64,000 nt of DNA from Rhodopseudomonas pseudopalustris (GTDB lineage Bacteria > Pseudomonadota > Alphaproteobacteria > Rhizobiales > Xanthobacteraceae): contig NZ_FODT01000013.1 in the NCBI RefSeq assembly GCF_900110435.1, forward strand, positions 62,001 to 126,000, given 5' to 3'. Positions 15,387-19,674 of the stretch are shown piece by piece. The notes beneath the pieces were generated by a model, which made no database searches, was not told where the DNA came from, and saw nothing but the letters and a program-made list of their open reading frames with translations. A program made the translations under genes and the position numbers. How positions within the stretch are numbered: the first letter of the stretch is position 1; each line of letters starts with the position of its first letter.

Positions 15387-18300
15387 GTGGTTGGGCGACA
15401 GCGCATAGACCGCGTGCGGCGCCAGTACAATCAATGGGTCGCCAACCAGACACTCGAAGATTATGCGCTGCGTTTCACCGCGAAGAGCGCGCGACGCTGG
15501 TCGGCGTTGCGGGTCGCCAATACGGCGCTCGGCGCGATTTCCTTCCTCGCGCTGGAAGCGATCGGCGGCACCATCACGCTGAACTACGGCTTCGCCAACG
15601 CCACCACCGCGATCCTGGTGGTCAGCGCGATCATTTTCTGCTGCGGCCTGCCGATTGCCTATCATGCAGCCAGATGTGGCGTCGATATAGACTTGCTTAC
15701 GCGCGGCGCCGGATTCGGCTACATCGGATCGACGGTCACATCGCTGATCTATGCCTCATTTACATTCATCTTCTTCGCGATCGAAGCCGTTATTCTCGCG
15801 ACCGCGCTGGAGCTGTGTTTCGGTTTGCCGCTGCCGCTGGGTTATTTGTTCAGCGCGGTGGTGATCATTCCGCTGGTGACGCACGGCATCACGTTGATCA
15901 GCCGATTCCAGCTCTGGACCCAGCCGTTCTGGATCTTGCTTCACATCCTGCCGTTCGCGGCGATCGCCATTAAGAGCCCGGAATCCTTCGTCGGCTGGAC
16001 GAATTTCGCCGGTGCGCACGGCGATCCTGCAGGACATCTCGACCTGCTGCTGTTCGGCACCGCGGCTTCGGTCGTATTCTCGCTGGTGGCGCAGATCGGC
16101 GAACAAGTCGATTTTCTGCGCTTCCTGCCGCGTGACCGCCACACCTCGAAAGCGGCGTGGTGGACCGCGATGGTCTGCGCCGGACCGGGCTGGATCGTGC
16201 CGGGCGCAATCAAGCTGCTGGCCGGCTCCTTCCTCGCCTATTTCGCACTGAGCCACGGCATCGAGCCGGAGAATGCGGCCGAGCCGTCGCACATGTATCG
16301 CGAGGCGTTCCGCTACGTGCTGTCGCAACCGGAACTTGCGTTGGCGTTGACCGGCGCGTTCGTGATGCTCTCGCAGATCAAGATCAACGTCACCAACGCC
16401 TATGCGGGCTCGATCGCCTGGTCGAACTTCTTTTCGCGGCTCACCCACAGCCATCCCGGCCGCGTCGTCTGGCTGGTGTTCAACGTGCTGGTCGCCCTGC
16501 TGCTGATGGAGATCGGCGTCTACAAGGCATTGGAGCAAACGCTGGCGCTGTACTCCAACGTCGCGATCGCCTGGGTCGGCGCGCTGGTCGCTGACCTCGT
16601 CATCAACCGGCCGCTCGGCCTGCGGCCGCGGCATATGGAGTTCAAACGCGCGCATCTCTACGACATCAACCCGGTCGGCGTCGGCTCGATGGCGATCGCC
16701 ACGGTGATTTCGATCGCCGCGTTCTACGGCGTATTCGGGCCGACCGCCAAGGCGCTGGCGCCATTCGTTGCGCTGCTGACGGCCGTCGTCACCGCGCCGG
16801 TCATCGCCATCCTGACGCGCGGGCGATTCTACATCGCCCGCAAGCAGAAGCGCTCGTGGCAAAACCTGCCGGCGATCAATTGCTGTATCTGCGAACATTC
16901 GTTCGAGCCTGAGGACATGGCGTCTTGCCCCGCTTATGCGGGACCGATCTGCTCGCTGTGCTGCTCGCTCGACGCACGCTGCCATGATCTGTGCAAGCCG
17001 CACGCGCGGTTCGACGCGCAGTTCACCGACGCGCTCGGCAAAGTTCTGCCGCGGCGCGTGCATGCGCTGATCAATTCCCAGGTCGGACATTATCTCAGCG
17101 TGTTCATGGTGTCGGCCGGGCTGGTCGGGCTGACGCTGATGATGATCTATTTGCAGACCTCGCCCGCGACCGAGGCGCAGCAGATCGTGCTGTGGGACAT
17201 TCTCTGGAAGCTGTTCTTCGCACTCACCATCATCGTGGGCGTGGTGACCTGGTTGTTCGTGCTGGCGCGGCAGAGTCGTCAGGCTGCCGAGGCCGAGACG
17301 CGGCGGCAAACCACTTTGCTGATGCAGGAGATCGATGCGCACCGCCAGACCGACGCCGAGTTGCAGCGCGCCAAGGAGGTCGCGGAATCCGCCAATCTCG
17401 CCAAGAGCCGCTATGTGGTCGGGCTCAGCCATGAGTTGCGCTCACCGCTGAATGCGATCAGCGGCTACGCGCAGTTGCTCGAGCAGGACAGCAGCCTGCC
17501 GCCGCGACCGCGCGACCAGATCCGGCTAATGCGGCGCAGCGCCGATCACCTCTCCGGCCTGATCGACGGATTGCTCGACATTTCCAAGATCGAGGCCGGG
17601 CGGTTGTATCTGTCGCGCGACGAGGTGCGGCTGGGCGAATTCCTCGACCAGCTCGTCGGCATGTTCCGGCTGCAGGCTGCGGCCAAGGATGTCGAGTTCG
17701 TCTTCAAGCGCCCGCAATATCTGCCGCCGGTGGTCTATGCCGACGAAAAGCGGCTGCGCCAGGTGCTGATCAACCTGCTGTCCAACGCGATCAAGTTCAC
17801 CCAGAGCGGCAGCGTGCATTTCATCGTGCACTATCGCAACCCGGTGGCCGAACTCGAAGTGCGCGACACCGGGCCGGGCATCCACGCCGACGATCTCGAA
17901 CGGATCTTCGCGCCGTTCGAGCGCGGCGCGCTCGGCGTATCACAGCCGCACACCGGCACCGGCCTCGGCCTGACGATCAGCAAATTGCTCGCCGGCGTGA
18001 TGGGTGGCGACCTCAGCGTCACCAGCGCGCTCGGCCAGGGCTCCACGTTCCGCGTCAAACTGCTGCTGTCTGAAGTCACCAACCCGACCCGCAGCCGCGC
18101 GATCCGCGCGCCGATCCTCGGCTATCACGGCCCGCGCAAAACCATTCTGATCACCGACGACGATCCGGCCCAGCGTAATCTGCTGCAGGAACTGCTGGCG
18201 CCGATCGGCTTCATCGTGCTGAGCGCGCCCGACGGCTACACCTGCATCAGCCTCGCCGAACACTGCCAGCCCGATCTGTTTCTGCTCGACATCTCGATGG

Positions 18301-18755: not shown

Positions 18756-19674
18756 CCTGAAGAAGCGCGATATCGTTCTCGTCGTCGACGACTCTCCGGA
18801 GACGCTGCGGATGCTGACCGATGCGCTCGACGGCGCCGGCATGACCGTGATGGTGGCGCTCGACGGCGCCGCGGCGATGCGGATCGTCGAGCAGATCACG
18901 CCGGACATCATCCTGCTCGACGCGATGATGCCGGGCCTCGACGGCTTCGAGACCTGCCGCAGGCTGAAGCGCAATCCCGGCGTCTCCGACGTACCGGTGA
19001 TCTTCATGACCGGCCTCACGGAGAGCGAGCACATCGTCCGCGGCCTCGAGGCCGGCGGCGTCGACTACGTCACCAAGCCGATCGTCATCGCCGAAATGCT
19101 GGCGCGGATCCGCGTGCATCTCGGCAATGCGCGGCTGAGCCAGAGCGCCCGCGCCGCGCTCGACGTCTCGGGGCGCTTCCTGCTCGCGGTCGATCGTCTC
19201 GGCAAGGTGCTGTGGGCGACGCCGCAGGCGCAGAAGTTGCTCGCCGCCGACGGCGTTTCGACGGAGGGCTTCCGGCTCGATCTGCCGAAGCCGTGGCTGG
19301 ATTGGCTGGAGCAGTTGCACAGCGGCCTCGCGCAACCCAAGACGCCGATGAAAGCGTCATTGCTGCGCAATGACGAACTGCGGCTGCAATACATGGGTAA
19401 GCTCGGGCCAAACGAATTCCTGCTGCGGCTGGCGCGCGACACGTCGGCCGACTCGCCGAGGGAATTCGCAACCGAATTCGGCCTCACCAGCCGCGAGAGC
19501 GAAGTGCTGGCATGGTTGAGCAAGGGCAAGACCAATCGCGACATCGCGCAGATCCTGGGGCTCAGCCCGCGCACCGTCGACAAGCATCTCGAGCAAATCT
19601 ACGCCAAGCTCGGCGTGGAGAACCGAACAGCCGCGGCGGCAATCGCCACCAACGCCAGCAGGCGCGATTCATAG
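18745..19674 (+). CDS. LuxR-type response regulator, partner of the permease-kinase
   Basis: A 309-residue regulator: receiver domain at about 8-125 with phospho-acceptor D59 (IILLDAMMPGLDG) and conserved K in VTKP, a middle region resembling a PAS sensor (about 145-240, GRFLLAVDRLGKVLWATPQAQ), and a C-terminal LuxR helix-turn-helix (FGLTSRESEVLAWLSKGKTNRDIAQILGLSPRTVDKHLEQIYAKLGV). It overlaps the end of the kinase gene by 11 nt, so the two are translationally coupled and form one phosphorelay. Targets are probably the divergent urt-fmd operon and its own operon. The PAS-like insert between receiver and DNA-binding domain is an unusual feature. Confidence 0.9.
   Translation: MTNDLKKRDIVLVVDDSPETLRMLTDALDGAGMTVMVALDGAAAMRIVEQITPDIILLDAMMPGLDGFETCRRLKRNPGVSDVPVIFMTGLTESEHIVRGLEAGGVDYVTKPIVIAEMLARIRVHLGNARLSQSARAALDVSGRFLLAVDRLGKVLWATPQAQKLLAADGVSTEGFRLDLPKPWLDWLEQLHSGLAQPKTPMKASLLRNDELRLQYMGKLGPNEFLLRLARDTSADSPREFATEFGLTSRESEVLAWLSKGKTNRDIAQILGLSPRTVDKHLEQIYAKLGVENRTAAAAIATNASRRDS

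Follow-up and report, generated by a model that had tools for sequence, protein, structure and literature searches.

An NCS1-derived, transporter-like domain as the probable sensor of a hybrid histidine kinase at amide and urea loci

Sensor kinases that use a transporter as their sensing domain have been called rare (PMC13022988, PMC7918813): CbrA, MxtR/CrbS and PrlS carry an SLC5 domain (PMC13022988, PMC7918813), and in an anammox bacterium an ammonium transporter domain is fused to a histidine kinase (PMC5764959). Here we describe a 1,122-residue hybrid histidine kinase, encoded at 15387-18755 of a 64-kb stretch of Rhodopseudomonas pseudopalustris DNA (contig NZ_FODT01000013.1; the whole stretch is hereafter called the window), in which a LeuT-fold membrane domain, a module of eight cysteines, two long helices, HisKA, HATPase and a receiver follow one another in this order. 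As in the CbrA type, a transporter-like membrane domain precedes a (hybrid) histidine kinase with a presumed role in nutrient control; the sensor here, however, is NCS1-derived, whereas theirs belongs to SLC5, CbrA has STAC and PAS where this kinase has the cysteine module and the two long helices, and this kinase, unlike CbrA, is accompanied by a local amide/urea gene set. With the kinase of the anammox bacterium, which we take to be the protein named Ks-Amt5, it shares a transporter-like sensor for a nitrogen compound, whereas the domain in Ks-Amt5 is that of an ammonium transporter.

Formamidase genes together with urt-like ATP-binding cassette (ABC) transporter genes have been reported for Methylophilus (fmdCABDEF), Bradyrhizobium japonicum (blr0968-blr0973) and Pseudomonas veronii Yu15 (PMC3098086, PMC13209695). 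For urt sets that adjoin a formamidase gene, the substrate may be an amide (PMC3098086), and this has already been proposed for the fmd-linked sets of B. japonicum and P. veronii (PMC3098086, PMC13209695); the passages devoted to these three operons name neither a sensor kinase nor an operator. In the open-access literature, a scope outside which most subscription papers fall, we found no NCS1-type sensor kinase and no sensor kinase for formamidase, amidase or urease loci. Transporter-like sensor kinases are hence known already, and what is new here is the NCS1-derived sensor and an 18-bp palindrome.

Our proposal, which we consider likely, is that the NCS1-like domain serves as the receptor for formamide- or urea-like amides and that the LuxR-type regulator encoded beside the kinase activates uptake and hydrolysis via this palindrome. 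The computed support consists of the fold and ancestry of the domain, the intact phosphorelay residues, the linkage with amide and urea genes, and an operator that follows the target promoters. For the ligand, the signal path, the binding of the regulator to its site and activation as the direction of control, we infer the following course: The membrane domain would bind a formamide- or urea-like amide, and the resulting conformational change would reach the kinase core by way of the cysteine module and the last two long helices. From there, phosphate would pass to the LuxR regulator, which is predicted to bind palindromes of the type ATACGTC-N4-GACGTAT, thereby turning on the kinase and regulator genes as well as the divergent operon (here urtABCDE-fmdAB). 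Since ligand class, regulator, operator and targets are predicted together, the change from transporter to receptor becomes directly testable.

The initial annotation of this DNA had credited the kinase with a complete NCS1-type permease domain, a claim that stood as regards fold and ancestry but not as regards the Pfam model. Pfam and NCBIfam searches left the domain unnamed: With E-values of up to 1 admitted, the matches of the kinase did not include PF02133, though HMMER's filters discard most of those above 0.1; the organism's own genome likewise had no match to this model at E ≤ 0.001. Neither phmmer nor a sensor profile retrieved an NCS1 match from the PDB sequences, the profile matching kinase parts only. 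In contrast, hhalign comparison of an alignment of 76 sensors with 13 NCS1 permeases gave a probability of 94.8 (E 5e-8, 372 columns), as against 0.7 for four sodium-solute symporters; an origin from the latter was rejected on this value and for lack of an SSF (PF00474) match. The AlphaFold (AF2) model of the sensor, with a predicted local distance difference test (pLDDT) of 84.0 and a predicted template modelling score (pTM) of 0.81, found CodB (TMt 0.80) and Mhp1 (0.69-0.71) at ranks 1-5 of 541 Foldseek matches in the PDB (E ≤ 10). A further sign of this descent is a stand-alone permease (L215), the nearest non-kinase relative of the sensor that we found: As it passes the PF02133 cut-off (36.4 bits) and is 28-34% identical to the sensors, it bridges these and the NCS1 permeases. 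The domain is therefore outside the NCS1 family by the Pfam test and NCS1-derived by fold and descent, and we regard its fold as well supported. The bridging permease, a candidate amide permease, is encoded in an operon (L215:9449-14484) with a carbon-nitrogen hydrolase, an AmiC-like binding protein and AmiR, and this gene content points to amides for the sensor group, too.

Conservation was read from the 76-sequence alignment. E133, which aligns with Q121 of Mhp1, is invariant, and glutamate is common at this position among the 13 NCS1 permeases as well. The likeness to Mhp1 and CodB thus comprises fold, profile homology and the alignment of this residue, whereas the missing PF02133 match, K332/I333 in the place of Mhp1 S312/T313, and the fusion to a kinase set the sensor apart. 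S312 and T313 are presumably the sodium ligands of the Na2 site in transmembrane helix 8 (TM8); this Ser/Thr pair is not kept in the sensor, K332/I333 standing in the aligned place or, by the hhalign register, one residue away from it, so that the register is uncertain to this extent. Because K332, at the place of these Na2-site residues, is invariant in all 76 rows, coupling to Na+ appears unlikely. This argues, within the same one-residue uncertainty, against a true transceptor, in which the NCS1-like domain would also import the amide and signal within its transport cycle, as proposed for CbrA (PMC13022988, PMC7918813). That alternative can point, beyond the CbrA precedent, to a whole LeuT fold retained with good model confidence, to many invariant polar residues in the sensor and to the nearest stand-alone relative found, a permease whose operon also contains amide-type genes; as the bridging permease itself has an arginine at the K332/I333 place, a basic residue need not preclude transport. 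However, the sensor mostly has dedicated importers (urt, amiS) next to it, and on balance we consider a transceptor rather unlikely.

Downstream of the membrane domain, the eight cysteines C499, C502, C514, C522, C525, C526, C532 and C536 are all invariant in the 76 sequences and possibly form a metal site. The second of the long helices (596-692) continues into the HisKA region, with residues 687-695 below a pLDDT of 50 in the AF2 model, and the stretch between transporter domain and kinase core had no Pfam match, a STAC profile not being among those compared. The phosphorelay residues H682 (HisKA) as well as D968 and K1019 (receiver) are kept, and the phosphoacceptor of the regulator, read from its sequence, is D59. 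Since the alignment shows no conserved histidine in the C-terminal tail of the kinase, there is no sign of an Hpt domain. A kinase of another genome (L223, G786) consists of the cysteine and two-helix part with the kinase core, no permease domain being found for it by tblastn.

We then considered with which genes the sensor travels. Among 149 genomes of the host's family, the sensor (E ≤ 1e-5) occurs in 47, FmdA (E ≤ 1e-50) in 48 and both together in 45, an association with a Fisher p of 6e-32 that is uncorrected for phylogeny. The survey of genomes for which the initial annotation had called thus did not find random association. As UrtA is present in 125 of the 149 genomes, the bond is with a formamidase-linked set and not with urea uptake in general. 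In 44 of 48 sensor matches, fmdA lies on the same contig at a distance of at most 12 kb; among the other four, fmdA is on another contig in two genomes (G064, G001), one genome that is 79% complete has no fmdA match (G048), and in one the sensor is a remnant (G037). Conversely, three genomes have fmdA and no intact sensor: One has a urt-fmd locus (G007, locus L046), another a weak match with two stops (G109), and in a third, fmdA and a regulator gene are both truncated and directly adjoin each other (G140, L047:10674-11600), an arrangement that looks like the trace of a deletion in which urt, the kinase and part of fmdA may have been lost.

Beyond the family, the sensor profile had matches (E ≤ 1e-15, a few by fragments) in 26 of the 385 genomes searched from the class and in 54 of the 398 from the phylum, and in a contig search at least 586 of at least 595 pattern-matched stretches encode relatives, the best 80 of which were taken into the survey. 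The resulting family spans alpha-, beta- and gammaproteobacteria. Of the 134 kinase loci that were typed with their surroundings (near-duplicates included, the remnant L040 dropped, and L215 left aside as it has no kinase), 126 are amide or urea loci: 90 have a formamidase-linked urt set (type F), 31 have urease and/or a urea-type urt set (type U), and five have fmdA-amiS-fmdB with an OmpR-type regulator and no urt gene seen in the stretch (type S); eight are unassigned. Eleven F loci show no fmdA; nine of these end within 3.6 kb, and in L134 the aliphatic amidase AmiE replaces FmdA. In the S loci (L031-L034, L216), AmiS stands in the place of urt, the OmpR-type regulator is divergent and the kinase has no fused receiver. 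Among the unassigned loci, four are without flank and one has an aliphatic amidase (L105). Four genomes (G747, G665, G726, G865) encode two paralogues each, one beside urt-fmdA and one beside urease, and in a quick tree of 89 rows with a very long outgroup branch the F label changes nine times (at least six on starred branches) and the U label seven times (at least five), type S forming a single clade. The family offers a candidate for the sensor kinase at formamide, amidase and urease loci. In one relative, an aliphatic amidase and a ClpB-like ATPase are encoded between urtE and fmdA (L153:2600-4687).

Because small-amide or urea chemistry stays constant while the gene content changes, the ligand class can be narrowed: With formamidase, aliphatic amidase, AmiS/UreI or urease adjoining the relatives, a small amide or urea is the most probable signal. 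Urea as the sole signal was rejected, since fmdA, amidases and amiS occupy the places where other loci have urease. The ligands considered in the initial annotation also included cytosine, hydantoin and allantoin, and the nearest solved relatives indeed carry cytosine (CodB) and hydantoins (Mhp1). A sensor for such compounds, with urt-fmd as a mere downstream salvage route, is nevertheless improbable: No nucleobase, hydantoin or allantoin genes were seen among the neighbours examined, most of which are incompletely annotated and were queried mostly for amide and urea genes, and what the exchangeable members of the gene sets, FmdA, AmiF, AmiE, AmiS and urease, have in common chemically is a small amide or urea. 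The close pairing with urtABCDE in most loci would also suit a flux sensor, whose permease-like domain reads the Urt ABC transporter in a BceS-like manner instead of a ligand; to this we give little credence, as the sensor also occurs at the amiS-fmdA loci (L031-L034, L216) and at four urease loci (L211, L213, L221, L222), whose stretches showed no urt gene.

The proposed control of these genes by the LuxR regulator is suggested by the palindrome (18 bp, consensus ATACGTCAATTGACGTAT), which lies upstream of both kinase and urt (window 15304-15321). It emerged as an inverted repeat when the upstream region in the window was aligned with those of 14 close relatives. The pattern ATACG-N8-CGTAT has its sole match in the window at this site, with none in 100 shuffles; with up to one mismatch allowed, the 57,963 bp upstream of kinases contain 85 sites and the remaining 2,533,290 bp of the loci 34. 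As the site is not significant within a single genome, its support is comparative. In a matrix scan (threshold 12, up to 450 bp upstream of the kinase, kinases under 850 residues left out), a site precedes the kinase in 79 of 89 F and 16 of 31 U loci, and the kinase or the target operon in 83/89 F, 22/31 U, 0/5 S and 1/7 unassigned loci; after removal of near-duplicates, the kinase-upstream counts are 47/56 F, 11/22 U, 0/3 S and 1/3 others. The fair test is an out-of-sample matrix, built from nine distinct sites of 29 close loci and applied to 100 distant ones: It found a site in 69, 66, 62, 45 and 40 of these at thresholds 4, 6, 8, 10 and 12, where 0.12 to 0.007 sites are expected per upstream window (0.027 at threshold 8). 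The two other exact ATACGYN6RCGTAT matches in the organism's own genome (C9, C14) were discarded, as they score under 12 and have no amide gene in sight beside them.

The distribution of the site also bears on whether the kinase controls something else and is only co-inherited with urt-fmd. The linkage is in large part inherited vertically within clades, as such a purely syntenic association would have it, yet the sensor tree requires the urease label to change at least five times on starred branches, and the operator recurs at promoters apart from the kinase: A second site lies 81-168 bp before the fmdA match in thirteen F loci, and in seven U loci a site, weak in two, lies 67-146 bp before the match of a urea-type urtA located apart from the kinase. 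Only four matrix hits in 2.6 Mb fall outside both the kinase upstream regions and the 700 bp before a queried gene. As a control, we used urtA upstream regions from 19 genomes without sensor together with those of unlinked urtA genes in 18 genomes with sensor, and 36 of these 37 had no operator. Neither was one found at the urt-fmd locus without kinase (L046) or in any of the five amiS-type loci, which use the OmpR-type regulator. Co-inheritance without control is accordingly hardly credible, and we regard the regulon as well supported. The sense-import-hydrolyse system of the initial annotation gains from the linkage with amide-uptake and formamidase genes, and control of urt and fmd may run through the shared operator. 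The sole operator among the 37 control regions (L312:259-276, G062) possibly marks its urtA as a regulon member in trans.

Several observations weigh against sensing of amides and control through this site. In the window, a longer 12-base pattern with two mismatches has one match against 2.3 expected; the first 12-base pattern was equalled by shuffled upstream regions in a mean of 21% of trials for F and 32% for U, and since many shuffles do as well, loci with three or more mismatches to it are hardly informative. The threshold-12 matrix was trained on the same upstream sites that it counts, and even so leaves six of 89 F and nine of 31 U loci without a site near kinase or operon, which suggests that some lineages use another site. 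The Fisher value for the host family carries the phylogenetic reservation given above. One F locus has urt genes with neither fmdA nor amidase in view (L146), and in three unassigned loci with flank, the queried genes are all missing from the surroundings (L182, L226, L228). Finally, residues that separate fmd-type from urease-type sensors (230-235, 139, 316 and others were considered) cannot be named, because there are only four independent pairs.

The features of the locus are collected in Table 1. The operon urtABCDE-fmdA-fmdB runs on the minus strand from 15231 down to 8495, and the kinase/regulator pair is divergent from it on the plus strand across a gap of 155 bp between urtA and the kinase. 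The initial annotation had described this layout, and it holds in each point: All seven operon genes pass their family models, the Urt set being complete with five of five subunits above the NCBIfam cut-offs; the kinase domains and the LuxR-type regulator have Pfam matches above cut-off; and the two genes overlap by 11 nt, with the kinase stop ending at 18755 and the regulator beginning at 18745. The cysteine module, the two long helices and the palindrome are additions to that description. The kinase start at 15387 (GTG) is conserved in relatives, and a longer open reading frame from 15252 was rejected in its favour.

Table 1. Features of the sensor kinase locus and the divergent operon (positions in the window)
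Feature	Position	Strand	Basis or remark
NCS1-derived LeuT-fold sensor domain	15387..16826	+	residues 1 to ~480; 12 membrane helices expected from homologues
Eight-cysteine module	16881..16994	+	residues 499-536
Two further long helices	17079..17462	+	AF2 model helices 565-590 and 596-692
HisKA + HATPase_c + receiver	17403..18755	+	Pfam, conservation
REC-LuxR response regulator	18745..19674	+	Pfam PF00072, PF00196 above cut-offs
Operator-like palindrome ATACGCAAGATCACGTAT	15304..15321	.	between urtA and kinase; comparative support
urtA-type substrate-binding protein	13969..15231	-	TIGR03407 547.1 bits, cut-off 492.75
urtB permease	12844..13770	-	TIGR03409 408.2 bits, cut-off 250.3
urtC permease	11681..12832	-	TIGR03408 424.8 bits, cut-off 296.2
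urtD ATPase	10915..11670	-	TIGR03411 380.3 bits, cut-off 304.1
urtE ATPase	10214..10903	-	TIGR03410 332 bits, cut-off 285.8
fmdA formamidase	8939..10168	-	NF045496 760 bits, cut-off 500 (equivalog)
fmdB zinc-ribbon protein	8495..8839	-	TIGR02605 49.6 bits, NF053663 148.5 bits, both over cut-off

A bolder and more tentative idea is that a whole branch of NCS1 has been turned from transporters into ligand-gated receptors for small amides and urea, in which a fixed lysine in the former sodium site would make ligand binding switch the kinase in place of driving transport, and a metal relay formed by the eight cysteines would couple the receptor to the kinase, the result being an interchangeable sensor-operator module; this may be so, and we would not yet bet on it. 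If true, proteobacteria own one interchangeable module for formamide, aliphatic amides and urea, whose kinase is found on hundreds of Klebsiella plasmids. On an Escherichia coli plasmid (L319:4870-15225, NZ_CP091757.1), the module contains AmiF, a nitrilase-type formamidase, in place of FmdA, and this copy, which is outside the training set of the matrix, has the operator at L319:10839. The first 1.5 kb of its kinase gene recur at ≥99% identity on 352 of 72,556 PLSDB plasmids, 337 of them from Klebsiella. The plasmid module lies near insertion sequence (IS) elements and resistance genes, and its part beyond these 1.5 kb was seen in the NZ_CP091757.1 record only.

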